Of a stretch of 64,000 nucleotides of DNA, positions 8,438 through 30,877 are shown piece by piece (within the stretch, counting starts at the first letter, position 1; each line of letters begins with the position of its first letter). This DNA comes from Chloroflexota bacterium (GTDB lineage: Bacteria > Chloroflexota > UBA11872), in the NCBI GenBank assembly GCA_026706485.1, contig JAPOYR010000011.1, positions 372,001 to 436,000 on the forward strand. The letters are read 5' to 3'. The notes beneath the pieces were generated by a model. The model saw nothing but the letters and a program-made list of their open reading frames with translations. It searched no databases and was not told where the DNA came from. Made by a program: the position numbers and the translations under genes.

Positions 8438-9397
8438 ATGGATTCGGAAGCGCCACGGTGGTACCGTACAAAATACGAACAAGCGATAGGAGCCAGCGTG
8501 GGCGAGTTCTCGCATCTAGTTGAGACCAGCGGTGACGGCCTGCCGGTCTCGGACTACCGACAGCACACTCTGCAGAAGCTTGCGACCGTGCGCTACTACC
8601 TCGAAGCGTTCAATATCGCGTGCACACGCACGAAATGGTTTGGCGGATGGACGTTTGTGGATACGTTCGCTGGTTCTGGCCTCGTGCAGGTTCGCGACAC
8701 CCAAAGGTTCTTCGAAGGATCTGCGCTGATTGGACTTCGAAGTGGGGCGTCTGTTGTCCACGCCATTGAGTTTGAGCAGGCCAATGTCGATGCGCTCAGA
8801 CAGCGTGCGACGGATCGCGGCATCGGTGGCCGACTCCAAACACATCCGGGAGACGCCAACACTGTCGCTCCACGTATCCTCGCCAACATTCGACCACGGA
8901 CTCCTGTGTTCGTGCTTCAGGATCCGGAGAGTATGGAACTCAAGTGGTCGACCGTCGAAGCCGTCGCAAGGGCCAATCAGGGAAGGCGCAAACGCAAGCC
9001 CGAACAGCTCATCAACTTCACCGACGGAGTTCTGAGACTCTTCTGGACTAAGCAGCGAATTGCGCCAGCGAACCAAGATCGCCTTGACAGCTACTTTGGT
9101 ACCGGTGCTTGGCGCGATATCGTCGAGAGCCGCAGGGCGGGTCGCTTGGAATCATGGGGGACGATCCAAGCTGCTGTGGACCTCTACAAGAAGCGACTTC
9201 GCGATGACGTCGGATACTCGCACGTGCTTGATCAAGAAGTGCGCCGCGACATGGTGACGCGCGGTCAGCGCGCCTATCACCTTATCTTTGCAAGTGACCA
9301 CCCTGCTGCTCGCGGGATCATGACGGACGCATTTGGGAAAGTGCACGTGGGGCAGGGCCAGTTCCCTGGGATGCCACCGGCGAGTACTGATGAGTAG
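8438..9397 (+). CDS. tcmP: Three-Cys-motif partner protein TcmP
   Basis: A 319-residue protein of the TcmP family, whose members occur in a two-gene cassette with a three-Cys-motif protein; function unknown. The N-terminal half looks like a class I SAM-methyltransferase fold: FVDTFAGSG resembles motif I and VLQDPESMELKW resembles the family's FxDPDxxxxxW segment. The cassette partner follows with an eight-base overlap. The two genes look less GC-rich than modABC upstream, hinting at transfer. The methyltransferase activity is inference from the fold-like motif. Confidence 0.82.
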   Translation: MDSEAPRWYRTKYEQAIGASVGEFSHLVETSGDGLPVSDYRQHTLQKLATVRYYLEAFNIACTRTKWFGGWTFVDTFAGSGLVQVRDTQRFFEGSALIGLRSGASVVHAIEFEQANVDALRQRATDRGIGGRLQTHPGDANTVAPRILANIRPRTPVFVLQDPESMELKWSTVEAVARANQGRRKRKPEQLINFTDGVLRLFWTKQRIAPANQDRLDSYFGTGAWRDIVESRRAGRLESWGTIQAAVDLYKKRLRDDVGYSHVLDQEVRRDMVTRGQRAYHLIFASDHPAARGIMTDAFGKVHVGQGQFPGMPPASTDE

Positions 9398-10112
9398 CGC
9401 GAGCCGCATCGAGTGGACCGACGCCACCTGGAATCCCGTGACGGGCTGCACCCGCATGAGTCCCGGCTGTGACCACTGTTACGCCGAGCGGATGGCGAAG
9501 CGGCTGAAGGCGATGGGGAATCCTCGCTACACGAATGGGTTCGACGTGACGCTGCATTGGGACAAGGTGTCCGAGCCGCTGAAGTGGCGGCAGCCGCGTC
9601 GCATCTTTGTAAACAGCATGAGCGATCTGTTTCACGACGCGGTTCCGCCGGAATTTGTGCGGGCGGTTTTCGACACCATGGCGGCCGCACACTGGCACGA
9701 GTTCCAGGTTCTCACCAAGCGCGCTCGGCGGCTCCCCAAGGTCGCGGGGGACCTCAGATGGCCGCCCAATGTGTGGCTAGGCGTCTCGGTTGAATCGCAG
9801 GAATATGCGTGGCGCGCGGACCACTTGCGTCGGGTGCCTGCCGCGGTGCGCTTCTTGTCGGTCGAGCCGCTTGTCGGTCCCGTTCAGACGCTGGACTTGG
9901 ACGGCATCGACTGGGTCATCGTGGGCGGCGAAAGCGGACCGGGCGCCCGACCGATGGACCCGCAGTGGGCGCGCGCGATTCGCAATCAGTGCGTGGCCGA
10001 ATCCGTCCCATTCTTCTTCAAGCAGTGGGGAGGTGTGAACAAGCACCGCACGGGACGCGTGCTCGACGGCCGCACATGGGACGAATTCCCGGTGGCGACC
10101 GCCAAAGCCTAG
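9390..10112 (+). CDS. Three-Cys-motif protein, DUF5131 / phage Gp37-Gp68 family
   Basis: A 240-residue protein beginning SRIEWTDATWNPVTGC and continuing TRMSPGCDHCYAE, which gives the Cys-x6-Cys-x2-Cys pattern that names the family. A radical-SAM-like iron-sulfur site is plausible but unproven. Other family segments are FVNSMSDLFH, LTKRA, WLGVSVE and VGGESGPGARPM. Homologues occur in phages and bacteria next to TcmP. The ATG at 9390 overlaps tcmP by eight bases; an upstream start inside tcmP is unlikely. No biochemical role is established. Confidence 0.85.
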   Translation: MSSASRIEWTDATWNPVTGCTRMSPGCDHCYAERMAKRLKAMGNPRYTNGFDVTLHWDKVSEPLKWRQPRRIFVNSMSDLFHDAVPPEFVRAVFDTMAAAHWHEFQVLTKRARRLPKVAGDLRWPPNVWLGVSVESQEYAWRADHLRRVPAAVRFLSVEPLVGPVQTLDLDGIDWVIVGGESGPGARPMDPQWARAIRNQCVAESVPFFFKQWGGVNKHRTGRVLDGRTWDEFPVATAKA

Positions 10113-10133
10113 CCGGCGAGCAGTCGGTCCCCG

Positions 10134-11216
10134 CTAGCTCGCCCCGTTCAACCTCGGCATCACCTCGTCCACCAGCAGCGTCATCGACTGCACCCACTGG
10201 TCGCGCGGCTGCCACTCGTGCGCCATGGCCAGCAGCACGCCGAACCCACCCACGTCGTCGTAGAGCTTCTGCAGCTTGGCGGTGACGTCGTCCGGGCTGC
10301 CCACGATGAAGACGTTGTCCACCAGGTACTCGACCGTCACGTCGGAGTCCGGCATGTCCGTGTCGATCTTCATCGCGTCGAGCATGCGCACCTTCGGCAT
10401 GATGTGCAGGAAGTAGTGACGGAAGTCGCGGGCCAGCGTGCCTTCCAGGGCTTCTTTCCGCGCCTTCTCGGTGGTTTCGGCGATATAGACCTCGCGCGCG
10501 ATGCGCCATTGCGAGCGGTCGGGCGTTCGGCCGGCCTCCCGCGCGCCCTCCTCCACCGATTCCCAGTGCGTCTTGACCACGCGCGTCGGCACCAGGTTGA
10601 TGCTCATCGGAATCCACCCACGCGCGCCCGCCAGCGTCAGCGTGCCGGAGTTCTCCGACACTCCGGCTACCCCGATCGGCGGATGCGGCTTCTGGTAGGG
10701 CTCCATGTGCACCCGCAGGCCGATCAGATCGTCCGGCTCGGGAATGTTGAAGTCCCAGAAGGCCGTTCGGTAGCGTCCCGGCTTCGGGTCGTTCCAGAGC
10801 ATGAGCACCGTTTCGATGGCTTCGCGCGTCATGGCCCGGTGCTCGCCTGTCTTCGGGTCGAAGCCGAACACCTCGAAGTCGCCGGGAAATCCGCCGGAGC
10901 CCACGCCCCACATGAAACGGCCCTTGGCCATGTGGTCGAGCTGGGCGATCCGGTGGGCGATCATGAATGGGTTGTGGTTGGGCATGCAGGTCACGCCCGT
11001 CCCGAACTTCATGCGCTCGGTTTTTGCCAGCGCGTGCGCAATGAAAATGTCGGGCGCGGGGATGTTCTCCCACTGCGTCGTGAAGTGCTCCCCGATCCAC
11101 GCCTCGCTATAGCCCAACTTTTCGAGCGTGATGAGCATGTCGAGGTCGTTTTCGAGCGTCTCGGTGACGTTCGACCCCGGAGGGTGCAGGGGCATGGCGA
11201 ACAGTCCGACGTCCAT
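10134..11216 (-). CDS. LLM class flavin-dependent oxidoreductase (luciferase-like monooxygenase)
   Basis: A 360-residue TIM-barrel protein of the bacterial luciferase/F420 oxidoreductase family. Typical segments are YSEAWIGEHF near residue 35, GTGVTCMPNHNPF, the GRFMWGVGSGGFPGDFEVFG flavin-phosphate region and PPIGVAGVSENSGTLTLAG. Members use FMN or F420 to oxidise aldehydes, alkanes or other small molecules; neither cofactor nor substrate can be assigned here. Two stand-alone neighbours on the other strand (DUF5131 and DedA) give no pathway context. Confidence 0.88.
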   Translation of the reverse strand: MDVGLFAMPLHPPGSNVTETLENDLDMLITLEKLGYSEAWIGEHFTTQWENIPAPDIFIAHALAKTERMKFGTGVTCMPNHNPFMIAHRIAQLDHMAKGRFMWGVGSGGFPGDFEVFGFDPKTGEHRAMTREAIETVLMLWNDPKPGRYRTAFWDFNIPEPDDLIGLRVHMEPYQKPHPPIGVAGVSENSGTLTLAGARGWIPMSINLVPTRVVKTHWESVEEGAREAGRTPDRSQWRIAREVYIAETTEKARKEALEGTLARDFRHYFLHIMPKVRMLDAMKIDTDMPDSDVTVEYLVDNVFIVGSPDDVTAKLQKLYDDVGGFGVLLAMAHEWQPRDQWVQSMTLLVDEVMPRLNGAS

Positions 11217-11376
11217 CGCAACCTCCGTCCCGTATCCGGACAGTGCGGGCGCGCGTTGAGCCGCGATTGTCGGCCAGCGGCGGACATAGCGTCAACGCGG
11301 CGGCAATTGACCGGGAGCGTCGACCACCGCCTGCGCGCTCGTTGCTACCGTGGACGGCGGGACCGCGCACGGTGCG

Positions 11377-12066
11377 ATGTCGATGGCCGAGTGGGTAGCC
11401 GAGCAGGGACAGCTGCTGCTGGCCTTGCTCGAAGATCACCAATACCTTGCGCTCGCCCTCGCCGTCGGTCTCGAGGGCGCCGGCGTGCCGCTGCCGATCT
11501 CGGCCGAGGTGGTCGTGGTCACGATGGGGTTTCAGGTCTACCGCGGCGAGGCGAACCCGTGGGCGGTGATGGGCACCGTGGTGGCGTCCGCCACGGCCGG
11601 CGTGAGCGTGCAGTATTGGATTGCGCGCGGCATCGGCCGCCCCCTGCTCGATCGCTACGGACGCATCCTGCGGATTCGCCCCACGCACCTGGAGCGCCTC
11701 GAACGCTGGTTCGCGCGACGCGCCTTCCCGGTGGTCGTGATCGGCCGCGTCGTGCCGGCCGTGCGCATCATCATTCCCGTCGTGGCCGGGGTTGCGCGCG
11801 GCGACTTCCGCCGCTTCGTGCCCGCCGCGGCCGCCGGAATCTCGCTCTGGGCCCTGCTCTACATGGGCATCGGCTGGGCCTTCGGCGACACGGTCGAGCA
11901 CCTCGTGACGACCCTGCTGGAGGACCCGACGCTGGCGGTCATCGTGGGCGCCGCGGTCGGCGGCCTTCTCGCGGTGCTCGTCGTGCTCCGCTTCCGCCGT
12001 CGTCTGGCGCCGCTCGTCGCCGGTCCGGCGGCGCGCCTAACCGAGCGATTCGGGCGGCGCGGCTAG
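11377..12066 (+). CDS. DedA family (SNARE-associated) membrane protein
   Basis: A 229-residue polytopic protein with hydrophobic stretches at the N-terminus (GVPLPISAEVVVVTMGF), in the middle and at the C-terminus. GRVVPAVRIIIPVVAG is the DedA Arg/Pro motif. DedA proteins act in the cytoplasmic membrane as lipid scramblases or proton-linked transporters involved in envelope maintenance. The start could be GTG 11350 or ATG 11377/11383; ATG 11377 is used. It is convergent with the RidA gene, ten bases downstream. Confidence 0.87.
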   Translation: MSMAEWVAEQGQLLLALLEDHQYLALALAVGLEGAGVPLPISAEVVVVTMGFQVYRGEANPWAVMGTVVASATAGVSVQYWIARGIGRPLLDRYGRILRIRPTHLERLERWFARRAFPVVVIGRVVPAVRIIIPVVAGVARGDFRRFVPAAAAGISLWALLYMGIGWAFGDTVEHLVTTLLEDPTLAVIVGAAVGGLLAVLVVLRFRRRLAPLVAGPAARLTERFGRRG

Positions 12067-12076
12067 GTCTCGTCCG

Positions 12077-12457
12077 CTAGTCGAGCACCGCCGTCGCCTC
12101 GATCTCCACCAGGCCGCCCGGGAGCGCCAGCTCCACGCCCACGGTCGAGCGCGCGGGCTTGAGGTCGCCGAAGTACTCGATGTAGACCTCGTTCATGCCG
12201 GAGAAGTTGGCGATGTCGGTGATGAACACCGTCACCTTCACCACGTCTTCGAGCGTCGCCCCGGCGGCTTCCAGCGCGGTCTTGACGTTCTCGAGCGTCT
12301 GCCGCGTCTGCGAGGTGATGTCGTCGCCCACCAGCTTGCCGTCGGCGTCGAGGCCCAACATGCCGGCGGTCGTCACGATGTTGTTCTTGCGAACCACGAG
12401 CGTGTAAGGAGCAATCGGCGCGGACATGCTGTCCGGGTTGATGCGCTGGATTCCCAT
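12077..12457 (-). CDS. RidA family enamine/imine deaminase
   Basis: A 126-residue protein of the YjgF/YER057c/UK114 family. The C-terminal signature PARSTVGVELALPGGLVEIE contains the Arg that binds the carboxylate of imine substrates, and DVVKVTVFITDI is the usual trimer-interface strand. RidA hydrolyses reactive enamines released by PLP enzymes such as threonine dehydratase. Length matches the family. It stands alone between DedA and a repeat block. Confidence 0.92.
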   Translation of the reverse strand: MGIQRINPDSMSAPIAPYTLVVRKNNIVTTAGMLGLDADGKLVGDDITSQTRQTLENVKTALEAAGATLEDVVKVTVFITDIANFSGMNEVYIEYFGDLKPARSTVGVELALPGGLVEIEATAVLD

Positions 12458-12606
12458 GAGCGTTTCTCTCTGTCAGTGACTCGGTTCCCGAGGGTACACG
12501 GCGGAATGGCGATTGGCCGTCCAACAAGCCCATTTCGTACTCCCTTGTCGGACGCTGGAACAGAGTCCGTACCCCCTCTCCGACTGTCCCTAAGTGCTCT
12601 CAGTTG

Positions 12607-12838
12607 CGAGACCCTTGCGCAACCCCTCCGTCATTCCCGCGAAGGCGGGAATCCACCCTTCATTGATCCCGGGGGCGGACAGGATGCGCCCGGTCATCGC
12701 CAAGTCCGGCTGGATTCTGCAAGAGTCTCCGGAGGCGGGAATCCACCCTTCATTGATCCCGGGGGCGGACAGGATGCGCCCGGTCATCGCCAAGTCCGGC
12801 TGGATTCTGCAAGAGTCTCCGGAGGCGGGAATCCAGCG
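12607..12838. repeat. Inverted-end repeat element with an internal 90-bp tandem duplication
   Basis: A complete copy (about 12607-12730) starts with GAGACCCTTGCG and ends TGCAAGAGTCTCC, near-perfect inverted ends, around the hairpin ATTCCCGCGAAGGCGGGAAT (12633-12652). A second, near-identical 90-base unit follows (to about 12820), then the first bases of a third. The element matches the copies at 34881-35003 and 31057-31178 in opposite orientation. Open frames across the unit come from its 90-base period and are not genes. Confidence 0.8.
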
Positions 12839-12860
12839 GCGGCTGAACGGCGGTCCAGTC

Positions 12861-12881
12861 CCCTCTCCCTGAGGGAGAGGG
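12861..12881. repeat. CCCTCTCC/GGAGAGGG palindrome
   Basis: A perfect inverted repeat, CCCTCTCCCT paired with a GAGGGAGAGG arm, followed by TTAGGGTGAGGGGG. A similar palindrome lies at 63209-63229. These sequences are dispersed in many bacterial genomes and could also end transcription, but no T-tract follows. Confidence 0.6.
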
Positions 12882-12989
12882 TTAGGGTGAGGGGGTCCGG
12901 GCTTGGGCGCGCGGGCTGTAGACCAATTGCCGAACGCCACCCATCCGCGACGGCTACCATTGCGTCTCTCGTCAGCGGAGGGCCTGGCC

Positions 12990-14153
12990 GTGTACGACCT
13001 CCTGATCTCCGGCGGCACCGTCGTCGACCCGGCGCAGGGCCTCAACCACCCGCGCGACGTGGCGATCGCGGGCGGCCGCGTGCGCGCGGTCGCCGAGCGC
13101 ATCGATCCCGCGCAGGCCGAGCACGTCCTCGACGCCTCCGGCCTCCTGGTCACGCCCGGCCTCGTCGACGTCCACGTCCACGTCTACGACGGCGTGAGCC
13201 ACTACGGCATCGACGCTGACACCTACGTCCTTCCGAGCGGCGTCACCACGGCCATCGACGCCGGATCGGCCGGCGCCGACACCTTCGAGGGCCTGCGGCG
13301 CTACGTGATCGAGGTTTCGGAAACGCGCCTCAAGGCCTGCCTCAACATCTCGGCGACGGGCATGGTCTCGCCGGTGGTGGGCGAGCTGGAGGACATCCGT
13401 CTCATAGACCCGAAGAAGGCCATCGAGGTCTGCGAGCGCCACCGCGACGTGATCGTCGGCGTCAAGGCCCGGCTCAGCGAGAACCTGGCGGGAAACAACG
13501 CCCTGCCCGCCCTGCACCGGGCCCGCGAGGCGGCGGACGCGGTGGGGCTGCCCATCATGATTCATCCCAACGCGCCCGTCTGCACGCTGGACGACATCCT
13601 CCGCGAGATGAAGGCCGGCGACCTGTTGACCCACTGCTATCACGGGTTGGACGAGGGCATCCTGGACGATGACGGCCGCGTGCGCGCCCCGGTCCGCGAC
13701 GCCGTAAACCGCGGCGTCCACCTCGACGTGGGGCACGGCCAGGGCAGCTTCTCCTGGAGCGTGGCCGAGTCGGCGATGGCGCAGGATCTCGTCCCAAGCA
13801 CCATCAGCAGCGATCTGCACGCCTACAATTTCGACGGTCCGGTCTTCGATCTGGCCACCACCCTCAGCAAATTCCTGCACCTGGGCCTGGATCTGCCCGA
13901 CGCCCTGCGCCGCTGCACCGTCACCCCGGCCGAGATCCTGGGCATGCAAGGCCAGATCGGCACCCTGGCCGTCGGCGCCCACGCGGACGCCGCGCTGTTC
14001 CGCGAGGAGATCGGCGCCCACAGCTTCGAGGACGCCCACGGCCAAACTCGCATCGGCGAGCGCCGCCTGGTGCCCGTCAAGGTCGTCAAAGGCGGCAAGG
14101 TCATCGACGCCATCGCCCGCGGCTGGCACGGCGACCATCATCACCATCACTAG
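12990..14153 (+). CDS. Amidohydrolase/deacetylase family metallohydrolase (dihydroorotase-like)
   Basis: A 387-residue TIM-barrel amidohydrolase. LLVTPGLVDVHVHVY carries the HxH metal pair, GVKAR near residue 150 the Lys likely carbamylated to bridge two metals, then LTHCYHG, LDVGHGQG and the catalytic Asp in TISSDLHAY. The closest described groups are dihydroorotase-like deacetylases and D-glutamate/amino-acid deacetylases; the substrate is unknown. The GTG at 12990 has GGAGG upstream and begins YDLLISGGTVVDP, the family's normal start. The protein ends in five consecutive His residues encoded naturally by the genome. Confidence 0.88.
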   Translation: MYDLLISGGTVVDPAQGLNHPRDVAIAGGRVRAVAERIDPAQAEHVLDASGLLVTPGLVDVHVHVYDGVSHYGIDADTYVLPSGVTTAIDAGSAGADTFEGLRRYVIEVSETRLKACLNISATGMVSPVVGELEDIRLIDPKKAIEVCERHRDVIVGVKARLSENLAGNNALPALHRAREAADAVGLPIMIHPNAPVCTLDDILREMKAGDLLTHCYHGLDEGILDDDGRVRAPVRDAVNRGVHLDVGHGQGSFSWSVAESAMAQDLVPSTISSDLHAYNFDGPVFDLATTLSKFLHLGLDLPDALRRCTVTPAEILGMQGQIGTLAVGAHADAALFREEIGAHSFEDAHGQTRIGERRLVPVKVVKGGKVIDAIARGWHGDHHHHH

Positions 14154-24911: not shown

Positions 24912-24984
24912 GGGCGATTAGCTCAGCTGGGAGAGCGCTACGTTTACACCGTAGAAGTCGCAGGTTCGAGTCCTGCATCGCCCA
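24912..24984 (+). tRNA. tRNA-Val (TAC)
   Basis: A 73-base cloverleaf: acceptor GGGCGAT pairs with ATCGCCC, D arm TAGCTCAGCTGGGAGAGC, anticodon stem CTACG/CGTAG with loop TTTACAC (anticodon TAC, U33 present), T arm with GGTTCGAGTCC. CCA is not encoded (ACCG follows). The nurA-herA-methyltransferase cassette begins 225 bases downstream. Confidence 0.96.
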
Positions 24985-25209
24985 CCGTATGCAGCCCGAA
25001 TATTCTCTACGTGCAACGCACGCCCCGTCAGCAGTCGTGCATTCACTCGCGAGAGATGCCGCACGAGCTGACTCCGAAAAGGACTTGCGGTGCGTGGGCC
25101 CTTTAGATTTGGCCGTTGCGCTCTGCCACCACGGACGTGCCAGGTGCGAACGTGATCGACGGCGTGCGACCCTAATGGGCACCGATTTCGTTATGCAAGG
25201 TCGCGAGCG

Positions 25210-26289
25210 ATGACGACCGAGCACCTGGGCGGACGCTACTTCGCCGATGCACTCGACGGTCGCGTGGACATCACCGACAGCTACGAGGTGTTGGGCGACC
25301 TTCCGAATCTTGTGGGCGTCTCATCGGGAGAGGAAGACGAGATCGTCGATCAGATTCGCCGACTGATTCAGGATGAGGGGGGTGGAGTCGCAACAATCGG
25401 CGGCACGGCCGCGCCGGCCACCGCAGACGCAAACAATCTATATCACGCCGATCTCATCGCCGCGGTCGACGGAACAGACGCCGTCGCCCCTCTGAGATTC
25501 GTCGCGGATACGCTCTACGCCGTCGGAATGGTGCGGGTGACGCCGCGGACGCACCATCAGCCCAAGGCGTTTGTGACGCGAACAAGGGCGTCACATTCAG
25601 CCTCCCAGAGTCTCCCGAGTGGCAACTTGAGTGACGCCGTCCAGCGCTGGAGTGAGCACCTTCGCGGTGCTCGAGAGCATGAGAGATCGTGGACGAGCAC
25701 ATTTAGAGAGTACGGGGAACGCGAAGTCGCGCTCGACTGGCTGAGGGGTGATGACGCCAGATTCGTTCTGGTTGATGGCCCAATAATCACCCAGAACATG
25801 CTTACGCAAGATCGGGCCCGCGGCCTGCTCCAGAACTTGGTCGCAACTCGGCGCGCAATCGGGTTTATCAAGGAGCTAACTGCTAACCCCTTGCTTACTG
25901 CGATCGGGTATGCGCTTCGACCGGACGAGGTCTTTGTGCTGAGCGACTGGAGGAATATTCTGTCCGACCGCTTCGGTGCAAGGCAGAGACATATCGGGAC
26001 ATGGGTCGAGCAACATGGAGAGGCAATTGTTAGGGCCGTCTACAAAGTCCGCAACCGGGCGTTCGCCGTCGAGTGTCACATCGAGCGACTGCCACTCGCA
26101 TTCGCAATCCTCGAACACGACAACGGGGGAGCGCTGGACCATGACATCCCAATGCTGCTGCAAATCGCCGACAACCATGTGCGGTCACGATTTAACGGCA
26201 ACCGCGCGCGTGAGGAAGTGATTGCACGCTTCGCTTCATCCGAGCCGAGTCGATTCCTTGCCCTTACAAGCGAGAGGGGATTGCGTTGA
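25210..26289 (+). CDS. NurA-like nuclease domain protein
   Basis: A 359-residue protein with NurA features: LIAAVDGTD near residue 84 and FVLVDGPII near 184 supply the acidic metal ligands of the RNase H-like NurA fold, then AIGFIKELTANP and the C-terminal HIERLPLAFAILEHDNGG with IPMLLQIADNH. NurA is a 5'-end-resecting nuclease that works with the HerA hexamer in archaea; some bacteria use such pairs against phage. Its stop overlaps the herA TTG start by four bases. The block is less GC-rich than the flanks. Confidence 0.8.
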   Translation: MTTEHLGGRYFADALDGRVDITDSYEVLGDLPNLVGVSSGEEDEIVDQIRRLIQDEGGGVATIGGTAAPATADANNLYHADLIAAVDGTDAVAPLRFVADTLYAVGMVRVTPRTHHQPKAFVTRTRASHSASQSLPSGNLSDAVQRWSEHLRGAREHERSWTSTFREYGEREVALDWLRGDDARFVLVDGPIITQNMLTQDRARGLLQNLVATRRAIGFIKELTANPLLTAIGYALRPDEVFVLSDWRNILSDRFGARQRHIGTWVEQHGEAIVRAVYKVRNRAFAVECHIERLPLAFAILEHDNGGALDHDIPMLLQIADNHVRSRFNGNRAREEVIARFASSEPSRFLALTSERGLR

Positions 26290-27878
26290 CCCAATTGATC
26301 CAGGTAGCCGACGACCAAAACACTCCCACCGACATCGTCAGGTTGGTGACGGGTGGGGAAGAAGAACTCCTTCCGCTCTTCACCTATGTGATTTCGGAAT
26401 CACAATCAGATCGCTTCTTCCTCCAGATCGCAACTCCGAATCGCAATCTCAGCCGCTTTTCCCCCCATCCGTTCGACGCCATCTCGTTGGCACAGATACT
26501 GTCGCTTCTCGGTGAACGCGGATACGCCACCGATGCGATAGTCGCGAACGTGACGTACTACGACGCAAAAGTCGAGGCGATCATGCGGGACGAACAGGCC
26601 GTGACAGCGTTTACTCGCCCGACGACTGGCGCCGTTTGCCGACCAGCCACGACCGGCGAGATAACGGCCTGCCTCGAATTGCCAGCCGGGAACGGGCCGG
26701 CGACCCGAATCGGTCACTTAGCACAGTCGGGGGACGCAGATGTTCCAGTGCACGTCGACGATCGAGTCCTCAATCACCACGCATTGGTGGCGGGAGCAAC
26801 AGGATCTGGCAAATCACACCTCCTTTCGAATATTGCGCACGCCGCCGCCCACATGGACCGGTGCGTAATCCTGTTCGACCACAAGCCAGATCACCAAGAC
26901 CATCACGAAGAAAACAACGAAGCAGCGTATTCCAAGGCATTCAATCTCAATGGTACCGGGAGTGATTCAGTACGGTATTGGACGCTGGATGAGGACGACC
27001 AAAACTCATCTGCTAGGCTGATCAGCGCCCAGGCATCAGAACTTGATAGGGCCATACTTGCCGGAACTATCTTTTATCGTGGCGGTGAGGAGAATCAGGC
27101 CGAAACATTTGAGCTTATAACCTCTGATTTCGCGGACAATCAGCAATCAACATGGACTATCCACGACCTCACCGACTACATCCGCAACAATAACAACGCC
27201 ACGCTGAGTAATCGAGTATTGGGTGCTGGTGGCGGTAGCCTAAACCCACAAACTATGAATGCGATCCGGTGGAAAATCCGGGCTCCAGGGCGTATCCCTC
27301 AGTTCCTCGATCCCAGGCCGACGCCAGATTGGCAAGGGAGACGCCGCGAGACTGGTGACATCTCCGACATATTTGCGCCCGGGTTGAATGTTATCCGCAT
27401 CAACGAGGAGAACGCGCGTGGCTATGCACTCTTTTTGGACCAGCTCCTGAGGCGAGCTGCATCCATTCGCAGTATCACTATGCAAGGAAATACGCAAGAG
27501 ACGCCAGCATTAGAAGTGATCATCGACGAAGCTTCGGATATTTTTGCAGCCGAATCCCGCCATTTGCGTGAGGCAGCAAGCAGTGCCCTAGCGGAACAGA
27601 TTCGAAAAGGGCGCTCACTTCACATCGGCTACCTAATCTCCGTGCAGAGTGCCGGAGACGTACCTGATCGAATTCGGAATAATCTCAACACTACGATCAT
27701 TGGAAGACACCGAAACTTGAGCGTATTGCGCGACGCTTTGCCTACAGCCAGAACTGAAATGCTCGATCAGGCAGACAAATTGAACCCCGGTGAGATGTTT
27801 GTTGACATGTTCTCTGTGCGCTCACTGCTTTCGTGCAAGATGGATTTGTCGCCGTCAAAGCTGACCGTTGCCGAGTGA
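26286..27878 (+). CDS. HerA/FtsK-type ATPase
   Basis: A 530-residue P-loop motor. Walker A GATGSGKSH lies near residue 169, a Walker-B-like CVILFDHKPDH near 193, a second acidic segment VIIDEASDIF near 411, and the sensor/Arg-finger region EQIRKGRSLHIGYLISVQS near 440. The first 140 residues may be the HAS-barrel. HerA translocates double-stranded DNA as a hexamer and drives NurA. The TTG start overlaps nurA (TTGA) and the stop overlaps the methylase GTG (GTGA), so the three genes are translationally coupled. Confidence 0.85.
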   Translation: MTQLIQVADDQNTPTDIVRLVTGGEEELLPLFTYVISESQSDRFFLQIATPNRNLSRFSPHPFDAISLAQILSLLGERGYATDAIVANVTYYDAKVEAIMRDEQAVTAFTRPTTGAVCRPATTGEITACLELPAGNGPATRIGHLAQSGDADVPVHVDDRVLNHHALVAGATGSGKSHLLSNIAHAAAHMDRCVILFDHKPDHQDHHEENNEAAYSKAFNLNGTGSDSVRYWTLDEDDQNSSARLISAQASELDRAILAGTIFYRGGEENQAETFELITSDFADNQQSTWTIHDLTDYIRNNNNATLSNRVLGAGGGSLNPQTMNAIRWKIRAPGRIPQFLDPRPTPDWQGRRRETGDISDIFAPGLNVIRINEENARGYALFLDQLLRRAASIRSITMQGNTQETPALEVIIDEASDIFAAESRHLREAASSALAEQIRKGRSLHIGYLISVQSAGDVPDRIRNNLNTTIIGRHRNLSVLRDALPTARTEMLDQADKLNPGEMFVDMFSVRSLLSCKMDLSPSKLTVAE

Positions 27879-28963
27879 GCGGTGTGAGCCAGCGATGGAT
27901 TAGGTACCTCCGGCGTAGGACGGGAGACCCCGGCCTAGTACTCGTTGAGCAGGGTCGGCGGATAGGCAAAGCACGGAGGGAACTGTCCTCGGACCGCTAT
28001 CGCGAGGTGCTCGCGCACGCTGGGCTGAGCGAGCGCGACGCCGAGGCTCTGGCGGGCTACGCCGCTGTGCTGGGGCCGCTAGTCGAAGCGCAGCCTGACG
28101 TCCGACTGCCCTTTCGTGCCAGGACGCTGGCAGCGCTAGCGGATCAACCGCTGGACGTGCTCGTACAAGCTGCACAGGCTGGATCGATCCAACCGTCAAT
28201 GACCGAGGCGGATGCAAAGTCCCTCACGCCGACGGCCAGCGCCTCCGTAGCATCGGTGATTCGGCCAAGCGATAGCTGGAACTTCGGGCGCCTTCAATGG
28301 CCCAGGATCGACGGCGAGAATGGATATGGCTACATACCCGGAGATCTCTACGCCAACTGCCTGTGGTACTACGCACGTAATGGCGATGTCGTAGTCGACC
28401 CGATGGCCGGTTCTGGCATGTTGCAGCGGGTGTGGGATGATCGCGACCTCTGGCTCGGCACCAATGCGGTCGAGTTGGAAATCGTAATGTCCGACCTCGC
28501 ACCGCGCGGCCCGTACCGGGAATTGATTCAGAAGTGTGACCTACTACAGAGGTTTCCGGTACCAAGAGCCGACTACGTCATACTCGACCCACCCTACTGC
28601 GAGATCGTTTCTGGCCAGTACTCTGACCTTGAGTCTGACTTGGCAAACATGTCGCCTGATCGGTGGCGCGAGGCCATGGAGGTGGTCGCGCGCCGTCTGC
28701 GGGAGGCTCAGATTGAAGGCGGACGCTGCACGGTAATCGTGCCCAACTGGCGCGGGCTCGCTAGCGGCCAACGACTACTGTTTCCCGAAATGGTTCGTCG
28801 GACTTGGTTGCGGATGGGCTACGAGTTGTACGACGTGGTCTATTCGTCACGCCGCATTCAGCGCCGGCAGGGTCGCCGAATCGCGATTCTCAACAATCAG
28901 GCCCGCCGATCACGCGTTCCCCTCACAGACATTTCGGAAGTGCTTACCTTCGTAGCCAAGTAG
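27875..28963 (+). CDS. DNA methyltransferase (DPPY type) with N-terminal ParB/HTH-like region
   Basis: A 362-residue protein. The N-terminal 120 residues are helical, Arg-rich and end in a helix-turn-helix-like stretch (AGSIQPSMTEADAKSL). The C-terminal part is an amino-methyltransferase: VVDPMAGSGML near 172 is motif I and YVILDPPY near 236 the catalytic motif, typical of N4-cytosine or beta-class N6-adenine methylases. GTG 27875 overlaps herA by four bases. As third gene of the cassette it could mark self DNA or take part in repair. Confidence 0.82.
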   Translation: MSGVSQRWIRYLRRRTGDPGLVLVEQGRRIGKARRELSSDRYREVLAHAGLSERDAEALAGYAAVLGPLVEAQPDVRLPFRARTLAALADQPLDVLVQAAQAGSIQPSMTEADAKSLTPTASASVASVIRPSDSWNFGRLQWPRIDGENGYGYIPGDLYANCLWYYARNGDVVVDPMAGSGMLQRVWDDRDLWLGTNAVELEIVMSDLAPRGPYRELIQKCDLLQRFPVPRADYVILDPPYCEIVSGQYSDLESDLANMSPDRWREAMEVVARRLREAQIEGGRCTVIVPNWRGLASGQRLLFPEMVRRTWLRMGYELYDVVYSSRRIQRRQGRRIAILNNQARRSRVPLTDISEVLTFVAK

Positions 28964-29308
28964 CCGTGCGGCCGTCCGGTGTTTGCATTTCGCTGGCTTC
29001 ACGACATACGAGCTGGAGTGTAGTGGGCAACTGCGCCAACGGCGGTCCAATAGTCTGACAAGAGATTCTGCTCGCATTGGCGGTCGTTGCCACGGGGACC
29101 AGGACGCATCCGTGCGGCAAAGGAGCGGCGCAAGTGGTGCAGCAACCCCCCAGGCCAGTTGGCTTGGGTCGGCGGGCAACCGATCTGTGCAGCCGAAGGG
29201 ACGAGCTTTCGCCCTTGTGGGCGGCTAGAAAGTATGCCCAATCGCCAAGCGCTTGCAGGTGCTATCCGAGTAGCAATTCCCAAGAACGCAAACAACGCAG
29301 GAGTTCGC
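28964..29308. other. Non-coding stretch after the nurA-herA cassette
   Basis: About 345 bases without a credible gene: open frames here lack family motifs and start sites. No integrase remnant or direct repeat was recognised by eye. Confidence 0.4.
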
Positions 29309-29317
29309 AGTACAGTG
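29309..29317 (+). promoter_or_regulatory. Conserved upstream box of the degenerate tRNA-Phe copy
   Basis: AGTACAGTG, containing a -10-like TACAGT, lies exactly 49 bases before the degenerate tRNA. The same nine bases stand at the same distance before the intact tRNA-Phe (30744-30752), so the promoter was probably duplicated with the gene. No good -35 box was found. Confidence 0.4.
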
Positions 29318-29366
29318 GGTACAGACCCAGCGGTGCCGCGCCATTACCCCTCGGGACCGCGCGCCT

Positions 29367-29442
29367 GGCGAGATAGCTCAGTCGGTAGAGCAGTGGACCA
29401 AAAGTCCATGTGTCGCCAGTTCGATTCTAGCTCTCGGCACCA
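29367..29442 (+). tRNA. Degenerate tRNA-Phe-like gene (AAA), possible pseudogene
   Basis: It is 76 bases long including an encoded CCA and differs from the intact tRNA-Phe at 30802-30877 at five positions. Three are in the anticodon loop (CCAAAAG instead of CTGAAAA): U33 is lost, the anticodon reads AAA, and C32 can pair with G38, which closes the loop to five bases. One mismatch falls in the T stem (CCAG/CTAG) and one in the acceptor (position 2-71). It may be a dead copy or a tRNA-like RNA that does not decode. Confidence 0.75.
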
Positions 29443-29811
29443 CCGACGCTTAACCCGCGCGGCCGCGCCGGAAGGTCTGGTCTCTCTCGGCGCCCGGAAT
29501 GACAGATCGGTAGTGCGCAAGGTGATGGCGCGGCACGAGCGACCAATCGCCCAATAGACCGGCGACTCCCAAGCACCCGGGCACGCAACACGATCAGCTG
29601 GGGGCCGTCGTCATCGCTCAACTTCGGTGATCCGTGACAGGTCGATGGGACACTTGACCCGAGGTCGCTCGTTCCGCCAAGCGTCCCGAAGGCGGCGGCC
29701 GCAGCCGCGAAGGAATCGGCACCAGCGAATTCGGCATGCCTTACGCGAGGCCTAGCCCCTCATCGCCAACGCAAACGGCGGAGATTGGGCTGCCGGCTAG
29801 GCCGCAGCTGT
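29443..29811. other. Non-coding stretch, no supported feature
   Basis: About 370 bases between the degenerate tRNA and the 3' end of the exported Nudix gene. A short CGGAATGACAG piece recalls the end of the dispersed hairpin repeats; nothing else was recognised. Confidence 0.35.
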
Positions 29812-30468
29812 CTAGCTCCGAACCTCAAGCAGCGCCAGAATTGGCTCGACATGTGCGTGTGTGGGCAGAGGCTCCCGCCGATCCCACCAACGAAAGTCTC
29901 TGATTTCGGCTGCAATCCGCACCTCGCCGTCCGCCTCGACAAGGAAGACGTGGTGCCTGTTCACAGAGCTCGCCCACTGGAACAGGTATTCCACTCGTGT
30001 CGCCGTGAGGCCCGTTTCCTCGAGCAGCTCTCGAACCGCCGCTTCCGCAGGCCGCTCCCCCGGCTCGATGCCTCCGCCTGGTATCGAGAAGTCGCCGGAC
30101 CCGCCCCGGACGAGCAGCACGTGGCCATTTCGAATGACGACCACGGTGGCCCGCTGGCGGAGTCCATCAGTCGGGGGCGCCGGGTGCACGCACTCGTATT
30201 CCCAGCGCCAGCGGCGTAGGTGTCGCCCCGCCTCCAAATCTCCATCACCCCAGACGCGATAGAACAGATCACCGACTTCGTACGGCTGTTGGTGTAATGT
30301 GCGCCCGTCCCAGGTGACGATGCGGGGGTCGCCTGGATCCCACGCGGGCGTGCACGCATCGAGACCCGATTGCTGGTCAGGAGTCGTGCCGTCGGCGGCG
30401 GATACCGCGGATACCGAAAGAGTCGCGGCGACCAGAATGGCCGTCACCATGCAGGCAACCCGCCTCAT
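29812..30468 (-). CDS. Exported Nudix hydrolase domain protein
   Basis: A 218-residue protein with a Sec signal peptide (MRRVACMVTAILVAATLS, cleavage likely after AVSA) and a C-terminal Nudix domain with a full box: GGGIEPGERPAEAAVREL followed by LEETGL. Nudix enzymes are normally cytoplasmic because their nucleotide-linked substrates are inside the cell, so an exported one is unusual. Residues 30-80, with WDGRTLHQQPYEVGDLFYRV, are unrecognised. ATG 30468 is used; a TTG or GTG further upstream (to 30504) would spoil the signal peptide. Confidence 0.82.
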   Translation of the reverse strand: MRRVACMVTAILVAATLSVSAVSAADGTTPDQQSGLDACTPAWDPGDPRIVTWDGRTLHQQPYEVGDLFYRVWGDGDLEAGRHLRRWRWEYECVHPAPPTDGLRQRATVVVIRNGHVLLVRGGSGDFSIPGGGIEPGERPAEAAVRELLEETGLTATRVEYLFQWASSVNRHHVFLVEADGEVRIAAEIRDFRWWDRREPLPTHAHVEPILALLEVRS

Positions 30469-30743
30469 GCTCACCGCCTCGTCATCTCTCCGACGTGCTT
30501 GCACATCTGACCAGAATGATGTGATTAACGATCATTCGTCACAATGGCACAAGAACCGCAGCCTGGTTGCAACCCGCACCCGGCCCGAAGACCGGGCGCA
30601 ACTATGGAATCGGTGCGACGAACCCTTGTCAACGACTTCGCGCGCTGTCACTGGCCCTCGGATGACGGACTTCCCTCGGATTGAAGACTCGAGCATACGG
30701 TGGCGGAGTGAGCTGCACCGACGATTCTCAGCGGTAGACCCGT

Positions 30744-30752
30744 AGTACAGTG
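30744..30752 (+). promoter_or_regulatory. Upstream box of tRNA-Phe
   Basis: AGTACAGTG, a -10-like element 49 bases before the tRNA; the same box at the same spacing precedes the degenerate copy at 29367. About 31 of the 49 bases between box and tRNA also match between the two loci. Confidence 0.4.
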
Positions 30753-30801
30753 CAGGCTCGCCCACCGGCATCGCGCGATGACCCGTTGGGGCCGTGCGCA
30801 T

Positions 30802-30877
30802 GGCGAGATAGCTCAGTCGGTAGAGCAGTGGACTGAAAATCCATGTGTCGCCAGTTCGATTCTGGCTCTCGCCACCA
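30802..30877 (+). tRNA. tRNA-Phe (GAA)
   Basis: A 76-base cloverleaf with encoded CCA: acceptor GGCGAGA/TCTCGCC, D arm TAGCTCAGTCGGTAGAGC, anticodon stem GTGGA/TCCAT with loop CTGAAAA (anticodon GAA), T arm GCCAG-TTCGATT-CTGGC. All stems pair, in contrast to the copy at 29367. Confidence 0.97.

Follow-up and report, generated by a model that had tools for sequence, protein, structure and literature searches.

Gene Arrangement and Insertion Site

The 64,000-nucleotide stretch analysed here (the window) belongs to contig JAPOYR010000011.1 of the Chloroflexota genome GCA_026706485.1 and carries, on its forward strand, three overlapping genes for a NurA-like nuclease, a HerA/FtsK-family hexameric DNA translocase and an amino-methyltransferase (MTase). 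This trio is a horizontally mobile operon whose genes travel together among unrelated bacteria and phages. Because the arrangement is conserved in such distant genomes, it did not come about by chance. The NurA-like gene (25210–26289) codes for 359 amino acids (aa) from an ATG start, the HerA gene (26286–27878) for 530 aa from a TTG start and the MTase gene (27875–28963) for 362 aa from a GTG start; a longer reading of the latter from a GTG at 27833 is also possible. Both junctions are 4-base overlaps of start and stop codons, with the sequences TTGA and GTGA. The guanine-plus-cytosine (GC) contents of the three genes are 0.60, 0.54 and 0.62, compared to 0.67 upstream and 0.65 downstream, and the first gene starts 223 bases behind the end of a tRNA-Val(TAC) gene (24912–24986, forward strand). 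A preliminary description, made from the sequence alone, had already reported the three gene types, their 4-base overlaps, the TTG and GTG starts and the position beside tRNA-Val in DNA of lower GC content, all of which were confirmed by the open reading frame (ORF) coordinates and the GC values.

The trio is contained in a 5.8-kb insertion (24988–30767), which used the tRNA-Val gene as its target. This gene has the same neighbourhood in five sibling genomes, and the insertion is missing at the same site in two sibling species. It is flanked by a 10-bp direct repeat, TCGCCCACCG, the left copy of which represents the 3' end of tRNA-Val (24978–24987, forward strand), while the right copy (30758–30767, forward strand) is followed by the ancestral spacer between tRNA-Val and tRNA-Phe, as seen in an alignment with sibling locus L044. 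The empty site is preserved in siblings G002 (L044) and G005 (L045), where tRNA-Phe follows about 35 bases after tRNA-Val. Because three further siblings (G001, G003 and G004) contain other, unrelated cargo at or beside this tRNA-Val/tRNA-Phe site, we consider it an integration hotspot. Scanning the island for promoters and terminators yielded nothing above the level of shuffled sequences.

HerA and NurA form a DNA-end resection and repair pair in archaea and Deinococcus (discussed in PMC5365140), which would favour a housekeeping pair for the resection of double-strand breaks, accompanied by the MTase as a bystander. However, the same genome already has a repair operon of its own on another contig (C3), made up of Mre11, Rad50, NurA (101 bits) and HerA (130 bits), and the HerA and NurA of the trio are distant paralogues of that pair. 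Moreover, this NurA and this HerA occur in just 3 of 400 genomes of the phylum, the same three in both cases and always with the MTase adjacent, and none of the 23 remaining genomes in the order contained the HerA. Because of the separate repair operon and the location of the trio in an insertion with empty sibling sites, we rejected the housekeeping role, which is highly improbable for the trio as such and already refuted for this genome. The accessory rather than repair function anticipated in the preliminary description is thus borne out by the operon on contig C3, the insertion and the defence-rich surroundings of some copies (see below).

The Encoded Proteins

The product of the second gene is securely placed by its sequence in the HerA family of the FtsK-HerA superfamily. 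It scores 39.2 bits with PF01935 (cut-off 23.2) and 51.8 bits with the PADLOC model for HerA, and the profile of its group matches the HerA of S. solfataricus (4d2i) at 2e-17. The central ATPase domain contains Walker A, the Walker B Asp-Glu pair, a sensor Gln and an Arg finger, and the corresponding GSGK motif, D414-E415, Q454 and R474 are invariant in eight relatives. In addition, weak matches to mad8 (HerA-type, 49 bits) and mad2 were obtained among the trio proteins.

The first gene probably codes for a NurA-type nuclease. Its product stays just below the cut-off of PF09376 (19.4 vs. 21 bits), and four of nine relatives weakly match the same stretch of this profile. A profile made from the nine sequences was recognised by hhalign when compared with a three-sequence NurA alignment (98.9%, 3.8e-17, 246 columns); this alignment consists of two HerA-adjacent NurA-like proteins, both of which miss the Pfam model, and the genome's own NurA, and is dominated by the former two. 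No match was obtained by hhalign with the single housekeeping NurA. The protein contains RNase H-like acidic residues and a C-terminal P-x-L-L-x-x-x-D motif, and D87, E170, D189, H311, P314, L316-L317 and D321 are invariant in the nine relatives; we assume for these residues the catalytic roles established for NurA. An AlphaFold2 model calculated from six sequences was poor (mean pLDDT 56) and gave no Foldseek match below 0.001, and a sequence search of the PDB with the NurA profile gave no match. The trio profile also detected NurA-HerA-like pairs in two Chloroflexota genomes (L052 and L053), the NurA of which are missed by PF09376; judging from their sequences, they appear to represent a bridging NurA branch.

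The MTase exhibits motif I as DPMAGSG and motif IV as DPPY, with D-x-P-Y present in every relative. It did not exceed the cut-off of any curated family (PF01555 was sub-threshold), and a PDB sequence search with its profile found no match. Its predicted structure combines a confident Rossmann MTase domain with a confident helical N-terminal domain resembling a helix-turn-helix (HTH) fold (residues 1–115), and its closest structural neighbours are amino-methyltransferases of the DPPY type, for instance TrmN/Trm14 (VIA-align). The N-terminus matches ParB_N in the relatives from loci L016 (35 bits) and L007 (19.5 bits, below the family cut-off), whereas the phage relatives carry a different HTH-like head, indicating that the head is variable while the MTase core is kept. 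A stand-alone relative annotated as ParB is present in podovirus ctLwi270 (L065, MW202554.1, 573–1853), adjoining a DNA polymerase gene and without HerA-NurA.

Distribution and Joint Evolution

The complete trio was found in eight further loci (L006, L007, L010, L012, L013, L014, L016 and L056), in one of which, L012, the NurA gene is interrupted by the contig edge. The hosts comprise Dehalococcoidia and other Chloroflexota, one Binatia genome, Thiomargarita and two phage contigs (L010 and L056), so the co-occurrence of the three families extends beyond this lineage, as the preliminary description had suggested checking. With the MTase alignment as query, five loci were obtained from 84,980 species genomes, namely L012 from Chloroflexi, L013 from Binatia, L014 and L015 from Dehalococcoidia and L016 from Thiomargarita; four of them contain the trio, and L015 begins at the MTase. 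Among virus contigs, the trio is present in L010 and L056, while L055 carries HerA-NurA followed by a D12/Dam-type MTase unrelated to that of the trio, indicating that a methylating partner was acquired anew from a different family. The plasmids of PLSDB and the phages of INPHARED contained no close relatives of the trio and just partial MTase or ParB-domain matches without HerA-NurA, and a tblastn search of the GenBank phage collection with the HerA of L056 yielded no relative.

The three genes evolve together: the pairwise protein distances for NurA, HerA and the MTase are correlated with coefficients of 0.98, 0.90 and 0.91 (Mantel p 0.0002–0.005). Inside the main clade, the MTase tree groups G045 with L014 (support 0.997), whereas the NurA and HerA trees group L013 with L014 (0.92–0.93), and this difference suggests that the MTase was exchanged separately from NurA-HerA. 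Comparing the window with L012, we obtained about 0.15 non-synonymous (dN) and about 2 synonymous substitutions per site (dS, near saturation) for all three genes. These values point to strong purifying selection and imply that all three genes, including the one for the MTase, were kept functional. The catalytic residues are likewise intact.

Genomic Neighbourhoods

The two deepest chromosomal copies, L016 and L007, are both located in defence-rich neighbourhoods. In L016, a defence island of Thiomargarita, AriA-AriB (PARIS) and PtuA-PtuB (Septu) lie directly upstream of the trio and PDC-S31 downstream, while L007 contains a mad2-like MTase, a mad5-like HsdS and an AbiJ-like gene, followed by the order HerA-MTase-NurA; genes for a tyrosine recombinase and a transposase-like protein lie farther away on the upstream side.

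The phage copies occur in different surroundings. The record of L056 represents a tailed phage with tail fibre, endolysin and Erf genes and a terminase match above cut-off, and its trio is placed between the tail/lysis genes and those for an O-like initiator, DnaB and Erf. L055 (3174–9592) shows a phage-type order of Sak4, exonuclease, HerA, NurA and D12/Dam MTase, followed by a primase. L010 (IMGVR_UViG_3300043571_000443) gave matches for head morphogenesis and, weakly, for terminase; type IV CRISPR genes (Csf2 136 bits) and PAPS-reductase/SspD-like genes were observed adjoining its trio (9076–12063, 12426–13169). The gene contexts of L056 and L055 would agree with a DNA-end-processing module of phages or mobile elements, in which HerA-NurA would generate single strands at DNA ends to serve annealing (Erf, Sak4) or replication, the HTH/ParB-MTase would mark, position or segregate the element DNA, and the chromosomal copies would be stranded pieces. 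The terminase matches, above cut-off in L056 and weaker in L010, and the lone ParB-type MTase relative beside the DNA polymerase of podovirus ctLwi270 point in the same direction. However, the chromosomal copies are intact stand-alone units under selection, unaccompanied by the other replication genes, and PARIS and Septu directly adjoin the trio in L016, leading us to regard such a module as quite unlikely.

Four of the eight chromosomal loci (the window, L007, L012 and L015) have a tRNA gene at most 0.9 kb away that is oriented with the 3' end towards the trio. This is unlikely to have arisen by chance, with a probability of the order of 1e-6, a post hoc estimate that assumes a typical rather than a counted number of tRNA genes, about 48 in 3.4 Mb. 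Furthermore, the GC content of the trio is below that of its surroundings in 7 of 8 relatives compared. In the island at tRNA-Val in L007, no exact attachment (att) repeat of at least 13 bases was found, and the contig may end inside the element.

A comparable setting is described for ICETh1 of Thermus thermophilus HB27, an element of 14.9 kb and low GC content that is inserted in tRNA-Ile at its 3' end (Blesa et al. 2017, PMC5365140; 2020 paper, PMC7767461). Its four-gene operon TTC1877-NurA-TdtA-TTC1880 codes for a type IIG enzyme, NurA, the hexameric FtsK/HerA ATPase TdtA and a methylase, whose gene overlaps by 4 bp; DNA donation depends on NurA and TdtA, while the effects of the methylase are minor (PMC5365140, PMC7767461). 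The trio could correspondingly be a DNA-transfer module, with HerA pumping chromosomal or element DNA out, NurA trimming it and the MTase playing a minor part, and the island would then be the remnant of an integrative element. The gene order, the −4 bp HerA/MTase overlap, the lower GC content and the insertion at a tRNA 3' end are common to both, and the tRNA genes facing the trio in half of the chromosomal loci as well as the tyrosine recombinase and the restriction-modification genes of L007 also argue for this possibility. On the other hand, we found no ORF for a type IIG restriction enzyme or an integrase between 24987 and 30767, two chromosomal copies are located in defence-rich neighbourhoods, and phages with their own packaging would not need a donation pump. 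Therefore, we consider this explanation fairly unlikely and defence likelier than DNA transfer.

Beyond the trio, the insertion contains just one further gene of some size, which codes for a NUDIX-type hydrolase with an apparent signal peptide (29812–30504, reverse strand). It lies between two tRNA-Phe copies, one of which belongs to the island (29367–29442, anticodon AAA); this copy has a changed anticodon arm and acceptor end and resembles, together with its spacer, the ancestral tRNA-Phe at 30802–30877. Because G001 also contains tandem tRNA-Phe genes, flanking a 2-kb insert, duplication of tRNA-Phe is recurrent at this hotspot. The cargo of the sibling genomes (L041, L042 and L043) includes long cytochrome c/sugar-dehydrogenase-like proteins, a protein with LRR and cadherin-like regions (1305 aa) and membrane proteins, and no recognisable integrase was found in it.

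Proposed Function

From the sequence data, we propose that the trio is a horizontally mobile, modification-guarded DNA destruction machine, a reading to which we give an even chance; most likely it destroys or processes unmarked DNA. HerA would form a hexameric ring on double-stranded DNA and feed it in an ATP-driven manner into docked NurA, as in archaeal HerA-NurA. The MTase would be brought to DNA by its N-terminal HTH/ParB-type domain and methylate an exocyclic amine, and the resulting mark would either spare the carrier DNA or tell the complex where to load. Chromosomal copies would most likely act as an accessory anti-phage or anti-plasmid system, and in phages the machine would be turned on host or rival DNA. 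Such a role in defence or inter-element conflict fits both the defence-rich loci and the stand-alone copies. The enzyme encoded by the third gene probably marks DNA, and mainly from the universal presence of an MTase and the replacement of this one by an unrelated MTase in L055 we infer a marking step that may serve to discriminate self from non-self, as the preliminary description had proposed.

More specifically, but also more tentatively, the trio might represent an ATP-driven class of restriction-modification that has not been characterised before. In it, the HerA ring would processively feed DNA without the MTase mark into NurA, and an exchangeable HTH/ParB reading domain of the MTase would set the target. 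Phages and bacteria would use such systems against each other and against rival elements. We regard this elaboration as possible, if rather doubtful.

Several observations weigh against a modification-guarded destruction machine. The proximity to defence genes expected from the preliminary description holds for L016 and largely for L007, but no defence genes were found beside the trio in the window, L006, L013 and L014, and in the latter three loci the trio lies amid metabolic genes. In the phages L055 and L056, HerA-NurA or the trio belongs to modules for replication and recombination that also encode helicases and annealing proteins of the Erf or Sak4 type, a setting that fits DNA processing equally well and is not predicted by a pure host-defence function. 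Structural matches of the MTase are led by tRNA m2G enzymes (VIA-align), and no well-known DNA MTase stands out among them; because of these best matches, the enzyme may act on a nucleic acid other than DNA, although the absence of a well-known DNA MTase from them is not evidence against a DNA target. In addition, the N-terminal domain of the MTase is just moderately more variable than the remainder (identity 0.50 vs. 0.65 in the clade). Finally, the NurA-HerA-methylase operon that has been studied experimentally, that of ICETh1, functions in DNA donation, with little contribution from the methylase (PMC7767461). The case for self-marking is weakened by this reported near-dispensability of the ICETh1 methylase for transfer. 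Defence, donation and phage DNA processing may also be different uses of one machine.

Comparison with Known Systems

The preliminary description had considered the trio a possibly undescribed system. This is only partly right, because ICETh1 has the same order of NurA, HerA/FtsK ATPase and methylase, which was published in 2017 as a DNA-secretion operon (PMC5365140). In a literature search, largely without subscription papers, no description of the trio as a system of defence was found, and the 2023 PADLOC models did not recognise it as a system. The new aspects of this work are the occurrence of the trio in phages and in a defence island, together with its likely self-marking role.

Compared to the Mre11-Rad50-HerA-NurA operons of archaea and Deinococcus, the trio shares the HerA fold class and catalytic residues and the NurA-like gene directly upstream, but it lacks Mre11 and Rad50, contains an MTase as third gene and is mobile, and its NurA is far from the core of the Pfam family. 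The HerA-nuclease defence pairs SIR2-HerA and DUF4297-HerA likewise couple a HerA-family translocase to an effector in an operon, whereas the effector of the trio is NurA-like and an MTase is part of the unit. Points in common with MADS and type I restriction-modification are the weak mad8 and mad2 matches and the position of the L007 trio behind a mad2-like MTase and a mad5-like HsdS; the window, however, contains no HsdR, HsdS or further genes of the mad1–mad8 set, and the trio MTase is of a different, small HTH/ParB type. DndFGH and BRC, HerA/FtsK capture systems proposed to catch invader DNA by a pump and a nuclease, sometimes together with DNA modification genes (PMC10853773, PMC12839542), resemble the trio in this principle but have another domain set, and NurA is not mentioned in either paper.

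The likeness to ICETh1 is one of gene order and genomic setting. ICETh1 additionally contains a type IIG restriction enzyme, a XerC-type integrase and 47-bp att repeats, whereas the window island has neither enzyme and a 10-bp repeat. Common to both are the order of NurA, HerA/FtsK ATPase and N4/N6-type methylase with near-zero spacing, and the strain-specific presence of a lower-GC island in the 3' end of a tRNA gene. The presence of one conserved and mobile NurA-HerA-methyltransferase unit in phages, a defence island and tRNA islands links the HerA-NurA literature on repair resection with that on the Thermus DNA donor, and it leads to the prediction that the methylation state of a DNA determines whether it is destroyed by the HerA-NurA pump. 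If this is true, the "minor" methylase of ICETh1 would gain a function, and the catalogues of defence systems would gain a three-gene candidate.

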